A stretch of DNA of 64,000 bases from the NCBI RefSeq assembly GCF_004366795.1, contig NZ_SORF01000012.1, positions 1-64,000 of the forward strand, in the 5' to 3' direction. The notes below the pieces were generated by a model. That model was not told where the DNA came from. It worked only from the letters and a program-made list of their open reading frames with translations, and did no database searches. Shown in pieces: positions 2,186-58,433 of this stretch. Source of the DNA: Alicyclobacillus sacchari (GTDB taxonomy: Bacteria > Bacillota > Bacilli > Alicyclobacillales > Alicyclobacillaceae). Each line of letters begins with the position of its first letter. Position 1 is the stretch's first letter. A program made the position numbers and the translations under genes.

Positions 2186-3382
2186 ATGGCTGTTGTGCAA
2201 GCTGTACGCGAGCAAGGTAGGATGAATCGGGATGCGGTATGGAGTATATGCGGAACTCACGTACTGAACGACGTATCCACCACAGGGCTTGTACCCGCGC
2301 TGACCCAAATGTATAAACCAATTTATCATCTCAACTATACACAGATCAGCTTGATTGTGCTCGTCTCATATCTCGCATCCTCAATTTCGCAGCCGTTGTT
2401 TGGTGCGTGGGCGGATCGGCACCCGCGTGCATGGATGTTGCCGCTTGGTCTCTTTCTTTCGACCATTGGCATTGCACTCACGGGGATCGCGCCCAGTTAC
2501 AGTGTTTTGCTTATCTTTGTGGCCATCAGTGGTTTGGGATCGGGCGCATTTCACCCTGAAGCGTCGCGCGCGACACACCTTGCAGCGGGCCGCGTGAAGG
2601 GACTCGCGCAAGCTATCTTCCAGGTCGGCGGTAACGGCGGGCAGGCCATAGGCCCCTTGATTGTGTCGCTCTTTTTGTTGTCCGCGGGCATTCGTGGCGT
2701 TTTATGGATGTTTGTGGCGGTTGCCTTGGGCCTTGTCCTGACCTTGCGCTTGTATCCTTGGTATCGAGATGGGCTTCGGGACGCTGGCAAGAAATTGCGT
2801 GAAGTGGACGGGGACAATCAGATTGGGGCGGTTATTTTGCTTGTCATCGTGATCGTCCTGCGGTCTTGGTGTCAAATCGGCATTGCGCAGTTTATGCCGT
2901 TTTACTACGCTCACAAGTACGGCATGGGCTATCACCTGTCGGACACCTTTACATTCGTGTTTTTAGGTGCCGGGGCCATCGGAACGTTCATCGGTGGCGC
3001 GCTGGCCGATAAAATGTCGAAACAGCGCATCCTGCTGTATTCCATGTTGTGTTCCATCCCGTTCGGGCTTGGCCTTCCGTTTTTCAGCGGACTCTGGGCT
3101 CTTGTTGTGCTGATTCCGTTCGGCTTTTTCATTCTTTCTTCATTCGCCGTCACAGTCGTATATATGCAACACTTGCTACCCCGAAACATTTCGCTCGCTT
3201 CTGGACTGACGATTGGATTCGGCGTCGGGGCGGGTGGTATTGGGGCAACGTTCTTTGGTATTCTCGCCGATCACGTCGGCTTGTCGGCGGTGTTCTACAT
3301 TCTCATGTTTGTTCCAGTCGTCGGCGCTATCTTGTCCGCATGTTTACCAAACGACCACAAAAGAAGGGCCGGTATCGCATAG
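2186..3382 (+). CDS. MFS exporter of the fosmidomycin-resistance (Fsr) type
   Basis: About 398 residues, twelve predicted membrane helices. The N-terminal stretch with HVLNDVSTTGLVPALTQMY resembles the H-x-x-x-D ... P pattern of Fsr/YfnC-like drug exporters, and GAWADRHPRAW is the MFS motif between helices 2 and 3. The family usually exports fosmidomycin-like or other small toxic compounds; the substrate here is unknown. Start at 2186 is preferred because GGGGTGG lies 5-12 bases upstream; an ATG at 2159 gives a nine-residue longer N-terminus without a convincing ribosome site. Followed by two strong hairpins (3388-3412 and 3434-3489). Confidence 0.82.
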   Translation: MAVVQAVREQGRMNRDAVWSICGTHVLNDVSTTGLVPALTQMYKPIYHLNYTQISLIVLVSYLASSISQPLFGAWADRHPRAWMLPLGLFLSTIGIALTGIAPSYSVLLIFVAISGLGSGAFHPEASRATHLAAGRVKGLAQAIFQVGGNGGQAIGPLIVSLFLLSAGIRGVLWMFVAVALGLVLTLRLYPWYRDGLRDAGKKLREVDGDNQIGAVILLVIVIVLRSWCQIGIAQFMPFYYAHKYGMGYHLSDTFTFVFLGAGAIGTFIGGALADKMSKQRILLYSMLCSIPFGLGLPFFSGLWALVVLIPFGFFILSSFAVTVVYMQHLLPRNISLASGLTIGFGVGAGGIGATFFGILADHVGLSAVFYILMFVPVVGAILSACLPNDHKRRAGIA

Positions 3383-26310: not shown

Positions 26311-26523
26311 CGCAATCCCTCCCCTCGAACTCGACATGGTGCAGGTTATGTCGCCGAACAAGTGACAGAGCAGGGCGGATGAAGGGGGTAAGGAGCACAT
26401 TTCCACGAAACAGAGAAGATGACCTGATGGGAACCTTGTGATGCTTAACGGCATACAGTGCATCCTGACGTATCGAGATGGGTTTCTGATGGTCGATGGC
26501 AGGATGGTATGAGGGAGAATAGC

Positions 26524-28503
26524 ATGACTATTGTAGTATTTCACAACAGATCGGTATTAGGTCGGCAGTTGATTGCGAGTTGGCAGCAAAAATATGACCG
26601 AGCTAGCGAAAACCCTATGATTGACAGTTGCTCGCTCGATGAATTGGAGCAGATTGACGCTCAACTTGTCATCCTTGCGTCGGATGTGCTCTCGGAATTT
26701 GAACAATCCGTGTTGGACAAGTGCAGGCTGTTACAACTCCGTGTATTGCCTGTCCTTGGTCGCGGCATGACGGTTTTCGTTGGTCCTCTCGAAGCCCCTG
26801 GGACCAAAGGATGTGCGACCTGCTTACAATTGCGTTGGGAAAGCAGTTTTGAGCGCAGTGTTCTTCGTCAGTTCTTTGGCCAACAAGGTGGCAGCACTAC
26901 ACACGAGCAACTAGCCGAGCCTTTCGAGATGTCCGCGGACGCGGTTGAGCGGGTAGGCGACATGGTTGCGAAAGAGATACAGTCCATCCTGCAGCCTCGG
27001 AGTGTACCCAACTCGAAAGGCAAGGTTGGTATCTGTAGCGACGATGACGTCGAGTGGGTGCCCATTCTTCCGAGCCACGATTGCTCTCGTTGCGGACTTG
27101 TGCCAGATGACGATCCCACGCTCGCGCACATGAATTTCACGCCATGTGCGGTTGCGGACGCAGAGTCGCTGCGGGTTCGGAGGATCGACTTTGAACAACT
27201 GAAGCGGATGTTCTTCCATCCAGAAGTGGGGTATATTTCTGTTGTCAATGAACATTGGGACGACATGGCGTTCGCGCAGGCCGCGGCGTTCATATATACG
27301 CCTTCCGGTGCGGAGATTGCCGGTTATGGTGCTGGTCCAACACTCACCGCCGCAAAGCAATCTGCTATGCTCGAAGCGCTTGAGCGCAGTTGTGGATTTC
27401 AAGCGATCAATCGCAAGCCTGTTGTCTTTGGCAGCTACAAGGAGCTTGCTGAAGCCGCCATTCATCCGTCGCATTTTGGACTACATCGTTACGAATTGCT
27501 GTCATCAGCTTATTCGTTTATAGAGCCTTTCGACGAGAATACAAAGTATTCGTGGGTATGGGCATATTCGACGAAGAAGGCAAAACCCGTCCTCATTCCG
27601 GAACAAATCGCTTATTATGGGCCAACTGCCGATCACAAGCGATTCGTCACAGAGTCGTCGAATGGCTGCGCAATCGGAGGAACCCTGGAAGAGGCGGTCC
27701 TGTACGGGATCTTTGAAGTCCTTGAGCGGGACGGCTTCCTGAACATGTGGTACGCGAAACTGCCGGTTCCCGAGCTGACACTTGTCGCTGGTTGTCCTAC
27801 GAGAACGGCAAATCTGCTCCGAATCTTGGATGGCATCGACTACGAGGTGCGCCTGTTTCAGTTGTCACCCGATCTCGACATACCTGTCGTTTGTGCGGTC
27901 GCTATCCATCGACTGAATCATTACCCGAAAGTGGTGAGCGGAACGGCGTGTCACCTAAATCCAGATGAAGCCGTTTACAATGCGCTTCGTGAGCTGACGG
28001 TACAAGTATGTAATCTCCGGCGATCGCCGGAGGCGAGGCGTGAACAAATCGTGAAGATGCTTGAGGATCCGACCAAGATCAAAGATATCCTTGATCACAA
28101 TGCTGTGGCAGCTTTGCCCGCAGCATATCCGCGTTGGACGTTTCTATTAGAACGAAAAGAGCAACGACGTATCCAGTCCGTCGAACAAACGTACCTACAT
28201 GCATCCGGCCATGACCAACATGCTTCAAGAGACATGCAATCCATCCTCGAGTCTCTTCTTTGCGATTTACATGCACGAGGGTTTGATGTTGTTGTGGTTC
28301 AACAAACGAGTCCGGAAGTGTCCTCGGCAGGCCTCTGTGCTGTCAAAGTTCTCATTCCAGGCATGACCCCAGTGACATGGGGATATGGCCTGCAAAGAGT
28401 CAGGGGGCTGTCGAGATTGTTCGAGTTGCCCTATCGCCTGGGCTATGCGAATCGCATATTGACAGAAGGCGATTTGAATCCGGATTGCCATCCGTTTTCG
28501 TAG
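26524..28503 (+). CDS. TOMM-type cyclodehydratase: leader-binding domain fused to YcaO
   Basis: 659 residues. The N-terminal part (about 1-200) resembles the ThiF-like leader-peptide-binding partner of azoline-forming enzymes and has two Cys pairs fit for structural zinc: CATC (97, 100) and CSRC (187, 190). The C-terminal 400 residues are a YcaO domain with its ATP/Mg motifs SAMLEALERSCG and IFEVLERDGF, ending HPFS. Such fusions install thiazoline/oxazoline rings in ribosomal peptides, as in the heterocycloanthracin type of Bacillus. No dehydrogenase, exporter or Cys-repeat precursor is adjacent. ATG at 26524 with GGGAG; the earlier frame to 26458 lacks a ribosome site. Substrate unknown. Confidence 0.88.
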   Translation: MTIVVFHNRSVLGRQLIASWQQKYDRASENPMIDSCSLDELEQIDAQLVILASDVLSEFEQSVLDKCRLLQLRVLPVLGRGMTVFVGPLEAPGTKGCATCLQLRWESSFERSVLRQFFGQQGGSTTHEQLAEPFEMSADAVERVGDMVAKEIQSILQPRSVPNSKGKVGICSDDDVEWVPILPSHDCSRCGLVPDDDPTLAHMNFTPCAVADAESLRVRRIDFEQLKRMFFHPEVGYISVVNEHWDDMAFAQAAAFIYTPSGAEIAGYGAGPTLTAAKQSAMLEALERSCGFQAINRKPVVFGSYKELAEAAIHPSHFGLHRYELLSSAYSFIEPFDENTKYSWVWAYSTKKAKPVLIPEQIAYYGPTADHKRFVTESSNGCAIGGTLEEAVLYGIFEVLERDGFLNMWYAKLPVPELTLVAGCPTRTANLLRILDGIDYEVRLFQLSPDLDIPVVCAVAIHRLNHYPKVVSGTACHLNPDEAVYNALRELTVQVCNLRRSPEARREQIVKMLEDPTKIKDILDHNAVAALPAAYPRWTFLLERKEQRRIQSVEQTYLHASGHDQHASRDMQSILESLLCDLHARGFDVVVVQQTSPEVSSAGLCAVKVLIPGMTPVTWGYGLQRVRGLSRLFELPYRLGYANRILTEGDLNPDCHPFS

Positions 28504-28713: not shown

Positions 28714-28722
28714 GAGCCTAGT

Positions 28723-28780
28723 CAAGTGGTGATGGGGCTCACCAAAACCGCCCGCGAGGGCTGATGGCTCCTGCAACCTG
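28723..28780 (+). ncRNA. Fluoride riboswitch (crcB motif) upstream of crcB
   Basis: The conserved core is intact: GGTGATGGGGCTCACC (P1 and pseudoknot strand), AAAACC, a perfect P2 hairpin GCCC-GCGA-GGGC, then TGATGGCTCCTGC. Pseudoknot pairing GGGGC with GCTCC is complete, with one G-U. The 3' edge overlaps the first arm of the terminator, so fluoride binding should prevent termination and turn on the two crcB genes. Confidence 0.95.
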
Positions 28781-28851: not shown

Positions 28852-29262
28852 ATGCAGGAGTGGAAGCGAATTGCCGCCATCTCGCTAGGCGGGGCCATCG
28901 GCGGTCTGTTGCGTGCGCTTGTCAGTTTGGCTGTTGGGAGCTGGGGTAAGTTTCCCATCGACTATTCCCTGATCAACATCGTGGGTTCCTTTCTGCTAGG
29001 TGTGATTCAACAAACAGCTCTCCGACGCACGTGGCCGGACTGGCTGATTGCCGGCCTGGGTACAGGTGTCATGGGCGGATTCACGACATTCTCCACCTTT
29101 GTCGAAGGAACGATGCACCTGTTTGTGGATGTTCCAATCCTTGGTTTCGTTTACATCCTGGCCAGTGGACTCGGCGGCCCGGTTGCAGCCTGGTCTGGAC
29201 AGTGGTTGATTGTCGCATGGAGCCAACGGTTCGAGCGTTCGGCCGAGGAGGTGTCGGCGTGA
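28852..29262 (+). CDS. crcB: Fluoride exporter subunit CrcB/Fluc (first copy)
   Basis: 136 residues, four helices. Signatures GGAIGGLLRALVS at the N-terminus (the conserved GxxGxxxR), LINIVGSFLLG and GFTTFSTF are all present. Together with the second copy it would form the dual-topology fluoride channel; two adjacent, unequal crcB genes usually mean a fixed-orientation heterodimer. GGGGAGGAG before the ATG. The stop overlaps the start of the next gene (GTGA). Confidence 0.96.
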   Translation: MQEWKRIAAISLGGAIGGLLRALVSLAVGSWGKFPIDYSLINIVGSFLLGVIQQTALRRTWPDWLIAGLGTGVMGGFTTFSTFVEGTMHLFVDVPILGFVYILASGLGGPVAAWSGQWLIVAWSQRFERSAEEVSA

Positions 29263-29618
29263 TCGGCACAACGATTTGGCTGACCACCGGAGGTTCGGCC
29301 ATCGGAGCTCTTGCCCGTTACGGTGTGGGGAGGTTCGTGGGGCGCTGCAATCGATCCGCCTTTCCATGGGGTACCTGGCTGATCAATGGGTTTGGCACTG
29401 CGTTATTCGGCATCTTTGCAATCGCATTTGCGCAGAACGCGCCTTCTTTGTTTCTATTGTTAGGGGCGGGTTTTTGTGGAGGTTTTACAACGTTTTCCGC
29501 ACTTTCGCTTGAAACGGCTACGCTATTTCGTGCAAACCGCCTGCTGTCCCTTGCGTATCTGGTCAGTTCGCTCGGGATAGGCCTAGTCGTAGCCTGGCTT
29601 GTGCAACTTTGGCTGTAG
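29259..29618 (+). CDS. crcB: Fluoride exporter subunit CrcB/Fluc (second copy)
   Basis: 119 residues from a GTG at 29259 overlapping the first crcB stop, with GAGGAGG seven bases before. GGSAIGALARYGVGR, LINGFGTALFG and GFCGGFTTFSALSLE match the family. Slightly shorter than the first copy, as in other paired systems. An in-frame opening back to 29031 is a shadow of the first gene. Confidence 0.95.
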   Translation: MIGTTIWLTTGGSAIGALARYGVGRFVGRCNRSAFPWGTWLINGFGTALFGIFAIAFAQNAPSLFLLLGAGFCGGFTTFSALSLETATLFRANRLLSLAYLVSSLGIGLVVAWLVQLWL

Positions 29619-29694: not shown

Positions 29695-30198
29695 ATGCAA
29701 TGGGGGATTTGGCTGGCGAGCGCTTTGATTGGAGCAGGCTCCAACGCGGAGATAGCATTTGGGTGGCCACGGCGCAACTGGGTGGACATGGTGTTGGCCG
29801 TGATGTCTGCTGGCTGTCTCTGGTTTGGTGGCGTGAGCGCACTGCGAGCCGGCCAGCCCTTGCCCTCCGCTCTCGCGCATAGGATTGGAATCGGCATGTT
29901 GTTTGTCATGGGAGGCTGGACGATTGGGCATCGTTTGTTAGCATCGACATCACGCGAACAACATGCGGAAGAAGATGGCCTCTTTGGCGGTCGCATGGCC
30001 TTATGGCTGGCGCAATGTCTAGCCAGTTTTTGTATAGGCCTCGGGGCCGGATTGAGCCATCTCCATATCGTTGCGACCACCGTCTTCGCGGCGTTATCCG
30101 GAATGTGTATCGTATCACGCTCGCGGTTTACCTTTACCCGCAATCGCCCGCAACAACAACCCAATTCCAAAAATGACGAGCGTGACGATACACTGTAA
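29695..30198 (+). CDS. Unrecognised small integral membrane protein in the fluoride island
   Basis: 167 residues with about four hydrophobic segments (roughly 4-22, 36-56, 66-86 and 106-135) and a hydrophilic, Arg/Asn/Gln-rich C-terminal tail. A His-containing turn (GLSHLHIV) lies in the last helix. I do not recognise the family. TGGAGGGG is eight bases before the ATG. It follows crcB by 76 bp in the same direction with only a weak inverted repeat between, so it may share the fluoride-induced transcript. Its 3' end overlaps the convergent TerC gene by 84 bp, and the overlapping tail is the least membrane-like part. Confidence 0.6.
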   Translation: MQWGIWLASALIGAGSNAEIAFGWPRRNWVDMVLAVMSAGCLWFGGVSALRAGQPLPSALAHRIGIGMLFVMGGWTIGHRLLASTSREQHAEEDGLFGGRMALWLAQCLASFCIGLGAGLSHLHIVATTVFAALSGMCIVSRSRFTFTRNRPQQQPNSKNDERDDTL

Positions 30199-30777
30199 CG
30201 TCGTTGGCGGTATATCGTCCAAGCTGTCGATCATGCTTTTGACGGTAGGCAATTCGACGACGATCGAGGCGGCAGCCCAAGCCATCATGACGGCGCCAAG
30301 GGGAAGGATCCATACTTGGCGCTCCGCTTGCTTGGCTAGATAAAGCGACGCGGCGACGAACACGGGGATACTTGCCAAGGACCATGCGATCAGCCACAAG
30401 CGATTGCCCTGCAACGTGGATCCCAACCAAATGATGTTATCCAAGTTTCCTATAAACGTTAAGAGAAAGAGGCGGCAGATAGGCCAGATGTACAGGCTTG
30501 GCGAACGCCCGGGGTCGTCATGTGTATCCGAAGCGAGCAGCCGCAGAGCCATCCATGCGAGAAGTAGTGATGAGAGAATTTGAAACCCCAGATGGTGCAG
30601 CAACCTATCGACGCTGGCGGCGGCCATGATTTGGGCCATAGCGAGCAGGCAACCTACGGCCACAATCACTCGCTTTCTTACGCGATTCAGGGAGGCTGGC
30701 ATCAGAATCCCTGCGAGTAAGGCGTTGTCGACAGCTGTCATGATGACCACGAGCAAGATTTTGAACAAAGGCGCCAT
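30115..30777 (-). CDS. TerC-family integral membrane protein under a fluoride riboswitch
   Basis: 220 residues, about seven helices. The TerC signature is clear near the N-terminus: ILLVVIMTAVDNALLAGILM (the conserved Asp-Asn pair) with a second acidic site in FLLTFIGNLDNIIWLGS. TerC proteins such as YjbE/YkoY of Bacillus export or handle Mn during protein secretion; others act in tellurite resistance. ATG at 30777 follows GGGAGAAA; a longer frame to 30894 runs through the terminator and aptamer and is not coding. It is the only gene on its transcript. The upstream element at 30843-30895 implies fluoride control, which is unusual for this family. Confidence 0.85.
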   Translation of the reverse strand: MAPLFKILLVVIMTAVDNALLAGILMPASLNRVRKRVIVAVGCLLAMAQIMAAASVDRLLHHLGFQILSSLLLAWMALRLLASDTHDDPGRSPSLYIWPICRLFLLTFIGNLDNIIWLGSTLQGNRLWLIAWSLASIPVFVAASLYLAKQAERQVWILPLGAVMMAWAAASIVVELPTVKSMIDSLDDIPPTTLQCIVTLVIFGIGLLLRAIAGKGKPRA

Positions 30778-30802
30778 GATGTTTCTCCCGTCCCAATTGA
30801 TT

Positions 30803-30850
30803 GACAAGCAAGAAGCCCCTACCCACGTGCGCAAACACGGGGCAGGGGCT
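30803..30850 (-). terminator. Riboswitch-controlled terminator before the TerC gene
   Basis: On the minus strand AGCCCCTGCCC pairs with GGGTAGGGGCT, followed by TCTTGCTTG. Its first arm is the 3' end of the aptamer, the same layout as in the crcB leader. Confidence 0.8.
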
Positions 30851-30895
30851 ATCAGTCCACGCAGGTGGACGGTTCTGGTGAGCTCCATCACCAAC
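30843..30895 (-). ncRNA. Fluoride riboswitch-like aptamer upstream of the TerC gene
   Basis: Read on the minus strand: GGTGATGGAGCTCACC, AGAACC, perfect P2 hairpin GTCCAC-CTGC-GTGGAC, then TGATAGCCCCTGC. This follows the crcB-motif order exactly and matches the leader at 28723 in P1. Two deviations: TGATAGC for TGATGGC, and one A-C mismatch in the pseudoknot (GGAGC with GCCCC). It lies just downstream of the GtrA gene end and ends in a terminator. Confidence 0.82.
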
Positions 30896-55689: not shown

Positions 55690-55950
55690 TGTGCGAAAAG
55701 TGGAGATTGGGAGTAGTAAAGATGTGGCCGGATGACAGAGAGCCGATGGTTGGTGCGAATCGGCAGAAGGTGCATTTTGAACTCACCCATGAACTGCAGC
55801 CCGACATGTAGGGTGTGCCGTGGTTCTCACGTTACAGGGATAGATGGTGCTTGCCATCAAGCAGAGAGGACTTTCGCCTTTGGAAGTCAATTAGAGTGGT
55901 ACCGCGAGCTAACCTTGCCTCGTCTCTAACCGGAGACGGGGCTTTTTATT
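55690..55950 (+). ncRNA. T-box riboswitch (leucine) upstream of leuA
   Basis: The diagnostic T-box AGAGTGGTACCGCG is at 55893-55906. A Stem I region precedes it (GCCGATGGTTGGTGCGAATCGGC), with a specifier candidate GAACTCACC at about 55777-55785; CTC is a Leu codon and fits the downstream gene. Uncharged tRNA-Leu should stabilise the antiterminator and allow leuA transcription. Confidence 0.93.
55913..55950 (+). terminator. T-box-controlled terminator
   Basis: CCTCGTCTC pairs with GGAGACGGGG around a short loop, then CTTTTTATT. The left arm overlaps the segment that would pair with the T-box in the antiterminator form. Confidence 0.9.
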
Positions 55951-57887: not shown

Positions 57888-58433
57888 GTGGAACATCGAT
57901 TGTACAACGAAGATTGGAACATCGCGTATCAACGAAGCCGCATGGTTGGTCTTCCCGTTCATCCCACCTGTTTGTTTGCGTACTGGTTCATGACAGATGA
58001 TCATCGCCGGCTATGCGAGGAGCACTGGTTGTGCGATTGGTCGAACATGCCCCTTTCGATTTGCGTTTACGATGTCACGGGCGTTTGGTTTGATGGGCAC
58101 AACGCACCGCTCGTTCGCCAGGAGATCATCCAGCCCACCGATACAACCAATTGGTACATCCACAATCTTGTCCCTGGGCGCCATTATGTCGTCGATTTGA
58201 CGCTTGAGCGCGATGGTGAGCGCTTCAGTCTGCTGCGTTCCAATATGGTATCCTTGCCACCGCTTGCAAAGCATGGTGCTCAGCCAGATCTCAAGTTTGC
58301 ATCGCCCTTCGTCACCACCGTGCAGACGGCAGGCCTTCGCATTTCCGATATCGCGAGCAGGCAGGACGATAAGGGGGAATTCCCCATCTCGCGGTATGCG
58401 GGTCAATTCGACGGCTATCATCTCACGCGCTGA
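57888..58433 (+). CDS. DUF4912-domain protein of the alpha-glucan gene set
   Basis: About 181 residues. YNEDWNIAYQRSRMVGLPVHPTCLFAYW, SICVYDVTG, WYIHNLVPGRHYVVDL and FSLLRSNMVSLPP fit the DUF4912 pattern seen next to GH57 and glycogen-type genes in Firmicutes. It has a carbohydrate-binding, beta-sandwich look; no catalytic function is known. Start is uncertain: GTG 57888 has GGAG twelve bases upstream, GTG 57870 abuts the ribosome site. The next gene starts 23 bp downstream, so the two are co-transcribed. Confidence 0.75.
   Translation: MEHRLYNEDWNIAYQRSRMVGLPVHPTCLFAYWFMTDDHRRLCEEHWLCDWSNMPLSICVYDVTGVWFDGHNAPLVRQEIIQPTDTTNWYIHNLVPGRHYVVDLTLERDGERFSLLRSNMVSLPPLAKHGAQPDLKFASPFVTTVQTAGLRISDIASRQDDKGEFPISRYAGQFDGYHLTR

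Follow-up and report, generated by a model that had tools for sequence, protein, structure and literature searches.

The stretch of DNA analysed here, referred to as the window, comprises 64,000 nucleotides of Alicyclobacillus sacchari (GCF_004366795.1, contig NZ_SORF01000012.1, positions 1-64,000, forward strand). On the plus strand it carries a crcB operon, in which a canonical fluoride aptamer (28719-28780, RF01734, 54.0 bits) is followed by two genes for fluoride channel subunits, crcB 1 (28852-29262, PF02537, 67.6 bits) and crcB 2 (29259-29618, PF02537, 75.2 bits). The GTG start of crcB 2, which overlaps the stop of crcB 1, was our choice, and the domain scores were computed on 29265-29618. 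A third gene of the operon (29695-30198, plus strand) encodes a membrane-like protein of 167 amino acids, and its 3' end overlaps that of a TerC-like membrane protein gene (30115-30777, minus strand, 220 amino acids, stop included), which runs toward the operon from the opposite strand. The leader of the TerC gene contains a variant fluoride aptamer with A42 and C45 (30836-30901, minus strand), and the same element occurs in relatives. These two aptamers, in the crcB and TerC leaders, are exactly the two matches to RF01734 in this genome at E 0.001. The closest named relatives at the TerC gene are A. hesperidum and A. tengchongensis, with 83% and 82% protein identity.

The product of the third gene matched no family in a Pfam search. 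It contains a weak YtaF-like stretch (TIGR02840, 23.7 bits against a cut-off of 149.6) and has relatives with 66-68% identity in the two closest species. Because more distant relatives (28-33% identity) sit in six other crcB-holding fluoride-aptamer loci (L051, L054, L056, L064, L069, L115), it may be another fluoride-linked gene.

Two further features of the window were recorded. Directly 5' of the fluoride locus lies a gene for a SagD-type YcaO cyclodehydratase with a leader-peptide-binding domain (26458-28503, plus strand, TIGR03604 and TIGR03882), possibly part of a thiazole/oxazole peptide cluster. A T-box leader was matched with Rfam at 55694-55930 (plus strand, 121.5 bits).

A fluoride-type aptamer and terminator in the TerC leader

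The initial annotation had read the minus-strand leader of the TerC gene as a crcB-motif RNA made up of GGTGATGGAGCTCACC, AGAACC, a hairpin and TGATAGCCCCTGC. All four were found in this order on the minus strand; the hairpin, there named P2, is the P3 hairpin of the present analysis. The RF01734 covariance model matched the leader at 30901-30836 with 40.1 bits (E 1.3e-7), over the curated gathering score of 34. Judged by this score, the leader is confirmed as a member of the RF01734 fluoride riboswitch family.

The 5' strand of the pseudoknot, GGAGC, was read at 30882-30886 (minus strand), with the register taken from an alignment of 17 leaders. The 3' core, A40-U41-A42-GCCCC-U48 (AUAGCCCCU), lies at 30844-30852 (minus strand), and its numbering was transferred by us from the A40-U48 pair in PMC8752731, which is reported to be the linchpin essential for the fluoride-locked state (PMC8752731). 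Both linchpin letters, A40 at 30852 and U48 at 30844, are present in the window, as in all TerC leaders that could be parsed (18 of 18). At the level of letters, the linchpin is kept.

The two departures from the aptamer core noticed in the initial annotation are likewise present. At position 42, A (30850) replaces G, and the 3' strand GCCCC (30845-30849) can pair with GGAGC (30886-30882) except at the third pair, where A30884 faces C30847. G42 and five Watson-Crick pseudoknot pairs, absent in this leader, are usual but not defining for RF01734. For comparison, the order was surveyed in 59 genomes (labels G...), with 149 RF01734 matches at E 0.001; seven variant sites unlisted in that search were added by pattern, and flanks were taken for all 156 (loci labelled L...). 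The pseudoknot was parsed in 153 of the 156 aptamers (dropped were G015 C33:637, G001 C1:62830 and G024 C1:3100789). Since at least one pseudoknot pair is not Watson-Crick in 54 of these 153 aptamers, 31 of which have a mismatch, with crcB leaders among them, A42 and the A.C mismatch mark a subtype and do not exclude the leader from RF01734. The phosphates around riboswitch positions 41-42 are, we assume, those that hold Mg2+ near fluoride.

A terminator-like hairpin followed by TTCTT was found in the leader folds (30814-30850, minus strand). It overlaps the aptamer, as had been claimed, and takes the 3' strand of the pseudoknot into its 5' arm, so that in the folds the terminator competes with the pseudoknot in the manner of an attenuator. 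The folding energy of the leader is -49.7 kcal/mol, and shuffled sequences average -35.4 (z -4.3); 0 of 200 shuffles were equally good. The T tract after the hairpin is short (TTCTT), and a simple terminator scan did not list the hairpin at 30814-30850. In the other 16 TerC leaders, inspected by eye without folding, a matching 3' arm was seen, with poor T tracts in several, for example in G022.

The TerC-like protein

The open reading frame given for the gene in the initial annotation, 30115-30894, starts at a TTG within the aptamer. This extent had to be corrected, as the alignment of relatives points to the ATG at 30777, which lies 58 bases past the aptamer match and has GGGAG in front. The protein scores at the edge of PF03741, with 27.1 bits against a cut-off of 27.8 when searched as a protein and 27.8 bits in the genome search, where it was marked as passing the cut-off and where 30115-30777 was the only PF03741 gene found in this genome. 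With TIGR03717 (the YjbE family) it reaches 47 bits, under the cut-off of 134.8.

The DN/LDN residues of the family are kept. In the alignment, two Asp-Asn motifs, D17-N18 and D113-N114, lie in two repeats and are common to the TerC-like protein and YjbE-like rows. All 22 intact subfamily members have D17, D113 and N114, and all but one have N18. Presumably these residues form the metal site. An AlphaFold model of the protein is helical and of fair confidence (mean pLDDT 80.4, pTM 0.71). Structure gave no further support, because neither a Foldseek search of the model against the PDB (E 0.001) nor a search of the sequence profile against solved structures (E 0.1) found a match. The TerC family as a whole is described as having a conserved metal-binding site (PMC10550928). 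By its sequence, the gene encodes a divergent, small membrane protein of the TerC family in which Asp-Asn motifs are paired. Its helical nature, its length of about 220 amino acids and its two Asp-Asn motifs are shared with PF03741 members such as MeeF, MeeY and YjbE of B. subtilis and Alx of E. coli, whereas identity to the YjbE-like rows is only 24-25%.

Conservation of the aptamer-TerC pair

In the order survey, 17 aptamers lie directly 5' of a TerC gene of this subfamily, and all of them score over the gathering value of 34. They come from 16 of the 59 genomes and represent 8 genera (G000, G001, G005, G010, G013, G020, G021, G022, G023, G024 (twice), G025, G027, G029, G030, G034 and G036). 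As the 59 genomes hold 22 intact members of the subfamily, the pairing is present in 17 of 22, and together with the covariance score it bears out the earlier proposal that TerC lies downstream of a fluoride-type riboswitch. By our rough estimate from 149 matches in 59 genomes, fewer than 0.01 of such 17 pairings would be expected by chance. The explanation as chance or as an oddity of a single genome is ruled out by the survey.

The remaining five intact members comprise three with weak or decayed leaders and two without an aptamer. Two of the weak leaders score far under gathering (G016, 22.2 bits; G007, 21.2 bits), and the third (G008) gave no match at E 0.5, with a remnant and a terminator stem seen by eye. 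An aptamer was also looked for in the TerC leaders of G026 and G040, and none was seen. These five leaders indicate that fluoride control is not needed everywhere the gene occurs. Broken or partial TerC copies were found in six genomes (G001, as a second copy, G004, G015, G018, G035 and G037), and one of the G015 fragments has an aptamer of 33.5 bits, slightly under the cut-off.

As a side observation, the aptamer has decayed in the TerC leaders of L186 and L171 (bases 1400-1500) and the terminator stem remains, with little of P3 left in L186 by eye. These leaders are a possible natural case of riboswitch loss.

When the 17 leaders are aligned, standard pairs make up 100% of P1 and of the first three pairs of P3, 94% of the fourth P3 pair and 86% of the pseudoknot, and sliding the partners lowers pairing from 94% to 53% or less. 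The covariation score, 0.228 where shuffles averaged 0.124, and the number of cells altered on both sides (19) were each reached in 0 of 500 shuffles. Two weaker measures of pairing in the same 17 leaders did not stand out: the count of pairs with a change in both partners was reached in 34 of 500 shuffles, and that of further pair types in 113 of 500.

A second, distinct type of TerC gene is also found behind a fluoride aptamer, namely in G013 (L062:4009-4692, minus strand, PF03741 73.3 bits). The aptamer (C193:23184-23255, minus strand) scores 35.4 bits and has an unusually long P1-P3 stretch. An aptamer in its own leader was found in one of the six genomes with this second type; the other five loci are without. 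As a control, 21 loci of other TerC-like genes were searched, and no fluoride aptamer was found in their own leaders, at thresholds of E 0.5 (5 loci), E 0.1 (5 loci of the second type) and gathering (11 loci from other Bacillota). Two control loci have RF01734 matches on the opposite strand, L191 at 183-244 and L193 at 3176-3236 and at 1463-1514, the latter overlapping the TerC match at its 5' end.

Beyond the order survey, a close-relative scan of genome contigs gave three loci, all Alicyclobacillus. The subfamily profile, at E 1e-20, matched 23 of 398 genomes of the class, of which 21 belong to the window's family and the other 2 gave weak hits of the YjbE-like kind. A phylum search with another profile matched 52 of 398 genomes; this profile included YjbE-like rows, drew in ordinary YjbE-like genes and is therefore uninformative on the subfamily. 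Eleven of the loci from this phylum search are the control loci from other Bacillota named above. A search of plasmids found nothing.

TerC could also be a bystander, with an aptamer copied from the adjoining crcB operon in front of a gene that has no role in fluoride tolerance. Its convergent position next to crcB in the window and in close relatives would fit such an origin, as would the decay or absence of the TerC leaders in some species. Against this, the pairing is kept in 8 genera, the TerC gene and the aptamer type agree on the tree, and nine paired loci have no crcB in the fetched stretch (L083, L091, L095, L098, L099, L101, L105, L109 and L131), stretches that span only about 3 kb except in L083, L099 and L109. 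We consider a bystander role very unlikely.

Ligand of the variant aptamer

The initial annotation had also raised the possibility that the deviating aptamer has changed its ligand. In this case, it would sense for example Mn2+ or a metal-fluoride complex, and TerC would not be regulated by fluoride. The idea was weighed since A42 and the A.C mismatch travel together. Both occur jointly in 18 of 151 parsed aptamers (5 of the 156 were dropped), against 5 with A42 without C45 and 5 with C45 without A42 (Fisher p 1e-14, with rows counted irrespective of relatedness). Furthermore, one side of the TerC tree consists of 9 leaders that without exception have the A.C pair; 7 of them have A42, while those of G027 and G036 keep G42.

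The idea was dropped once the variant was found before crcB and enolase. Of the 18 aptamers with both deviations, 7 precede TerC and 6 precede crcB within 600 bases. Those before crcB (G041 twice, G042, G051, G052 and G055) were classed by profile, and downstream of the other 5 an enolase (G048), an FtsH-like protein (G053) and a Na+/H+ exchanger (G038) were recognized by eye. In addition, eight other leaders of the TerC subfamily are without the A.C pair at that place, and the linchpin letters are retained in all parsed TerC leaders. A changed ligand is unlikely, because the joint deviations also stand before crcB and enolase in a second family of the order and other genes of the TerC subfamily have canonical aptamers; we judge a TerC gene released from fluoride control in this way to be highly improbable. 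Since the variant serves ordinary fluoride genes in the second family, we argue for fluoride as the ligand throughout, and we infer the same ligand, with ON logic, for the variant aptamer of the window.

On the TerC tree, the 9 leaders with A.C and the 8 others are split by one branch with a support of 100/100, and one change suffices to explain the pattern. The tree has 25 rows, 8 of them unlabelled for the aptamer (3 outgroup rows, G007, G008, G016, G026 and G040), and some long branches; its root is the midpoint and gives no direction for the aptamer change. In two of the eight non-A.C leaders (G023 and one in G024), it is the adjacent pair of the pseudoknot that shows an A.C mismatch. A fluoride aptamer of A. 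ferrooxydans at 58159-58221 has been validated by in vitro transcription in work on functional switches (PMC13273304). An aptamer of G018, not before TerC, shares these coordinates, by which G018 appears to be the strain of that study, and the pseudoknot of this aptamer has a U.G wobble where the TerC leader of the window has A.C.

Pseudoknot strength and fluoride threshold

The switch might sense fluoride and yet be tuned down, with a weaker pseudoknot and a stronger terminator, so that TerC is turned on later than crcB. Changes in the pseudoknot sequence are reported to alter riboswitch function (PMC11077080), and a fully Watson-Crick pseudoknot is found in only 3 of 18 TerC-linked aptamers; the remaining aptamers have one in 96 of 135 cases (Fisher p 1e-5), and those of them from the window's family in 89 of 117 (p 2e-6). 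The TerC-linked rows are not independent, though, as one change on the TerC tree explains the A.C state, and the same mismatch is found in 6 crcB leaders of the second family. Moreover, the crcB leader of the window itself has a non-Watson-Crick G.U at the same place, and A42 could compensate by pairing with the U facing it. The contrast in pseudoknots weighs little as evidence, because the rows are related and the second-family crcB leaders share the mismatch. It hints that a weaker pseudoknot may set a higher fluoride threshold for TerC than for CrcB. Such a two-tier response, which would be compatible with our preferred reading of a fluoride-controlled TerC gene, is possible but somewhat doubtful.

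Genes behind fluoride aptamers in the order

To place TerC among other genes with fluoride aptamers, the longest ORF of at least 70 amino acids starting at most 500 bases away was picked downstream of each aptamer. With two duplicates omitted (L082:1801-2817 and L084:481-963), 143 of the 145 picked ORFs remained, and two picks were replaced by hand, crcB 1 of the window and the G036 row, which is still in a wrong frame (the TerC frame of G036 was read separately). Pfam, at E 1e-4, assigned 52 of the 143 to CrcB, 23 to Na+/H+ exchangers, 11 to TerC, 8 to NADH-dehydrogenase-type subunits, 5 to sigma-70 region 2 and 4 to enolase; some picks are in wrong frames, and the counts are rough and likelier too low. 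In these rough counts for the 59 genomes, TerC ranks third behind fluoride aptamers. The Pfam model is marginal on the subfamily, and our own TerC profile found 18 TerC genes and the truncated G015 copy behind aptamers.

Several other observations were made among these loci. The sigma-70-type factors 3' of fluoride aptamers (5 of 143 ORFs, for example L114:3003-3854, minus strand) could let fluoride alter transcription more widely. An FtsH-like protease gene with one Peptidase_M41 match (L153, 6068-7651, minus strand) lies behind a variant fluoride aptamer; in B. subtilis without TerC proteins, FtsH is reported to be essential (PMC10550928). Tandem fluoride aptamers occur in L078, L079 and L120, and also in L132, L074, L071 and L084, and near-identical tandem pairs were seen twice in G019 and once in G032, as if recently copied. 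Finally, the second family of the order has fluoride-like aptamers with a shifted P1 (of the CGCGATGGAGCTCGCG type) and AUAGCCCC (L143, L144, L146, L147, L151, L152, L153, L155 and L156). As these score under the cut-off or were missed, RF01734 seems to under-count the aptamers of this family.

A proposed TerC-type exporter in the fluoride response

We propose that the TerC leader is an attenuating ON switch for fluoride and that, under fluoride stress, the cell responds with a TerC-type metal exporter as well as with CrcB. From the sequence evidence, we give this reading a probability of about 0.83. Without fluoride, the AGCCCCUGCCCC... strand would pair downstream and form the terminator, and the TerC gene would be off. 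With fluoride and Mg2+ bound, GGAGC and GCCCC would form the pseudoknot and A40-U48 would lock it. The locked pseudoknot would block the terminator, allowing transcription of the TerC gene, and the product would carry a divalent metal such as Mn2+, or else a metal-fluoride species, from the cytoplasm to the outside. A fluoride-held pseudoknot that blocks a terminator follows the logic described in PMC2864571, PMC8752731 and PMC11077080.

The TerC leader resembles the fluoride riboswitch RF01734 in P1, P3, the pseudoknot strands, the A40-U48 letters and the overlap of terminator and pseudoknot, and differs in A42, the A.C mismatch of the third pair and TerC as the downstream gene. In contrast to TerC genes with a leader of the Mn type, the leader here is of the fluoride type. 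With the Mn2+ riboswitch yybP-ykoY (RF00080) it shares the principle that an RNA sensing an ion turns on TerC expression, yet the RNA family differs and presumably also the ligand. A covariance search of this genome with RF00080 gave no match at E 0.001.

The initial annotation had tied TerC to fluoride stress. As regulation, this is supported by the pairing of riboswitch and gene (17 of 22, 8 genera); a part in fluoride stress through metal export is suggested by two lines of literature. The TerC proteins MeeF and MeeY of B. subtilis are reported to have Mn efflux activity and to metalate exported enzymes by Mn2+ loading (PMC10550928). A review describes fluoride as disturbing the balance of divalent metals and divalent-cation transporters as over-represented in fluoride-exporter operons, and its available text names none under direct fluoride control (PMC11139923). 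Because TerC proteins export Mn (PMC10550928) and fluoride is linked to divalent metals (PMC11139923), metal export may be the contribution of TerC under fluoride stress; which ion is transported, and what the cell gains from it, is a guess on our part. More speculatively, and in our view rather unlikely, this TerC subfamily might form a separate defence of the Alicyclobacillaceae, turned on through a weakened riboswitch at higher fluoride than CrcB, which exports metal-fluoride species or a divalent metal that fluoride has made toxic or mislocated.

Neither the RNA class nor the protein family is new. As far as our searches go, no description exists of the conserved pairing, of this TerC subfamily or of the two coupled sequence changes in the aptamer. 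The literature search found no paper tying TerC to a fluoride riboswitch; the gene-association table of 2012, which lay outside this search, could list TerC. The table belongs to Baker et al. 2012, the main paper on which genes this riboswitch accompanies.

With a TerC subfamily among the commonest genes behind fluoride aptamers in the order, a defined protein is at hand for probing the link between fluoride and metal balance. The variant aptamer beside a canonical one is furthermore a natural test of how the pseudoknot affects the fluoride threshold. For Alicyclobacillus and its acid-loving relatives, our results suggest that the transport of metal ions may be part of living with fluoride.
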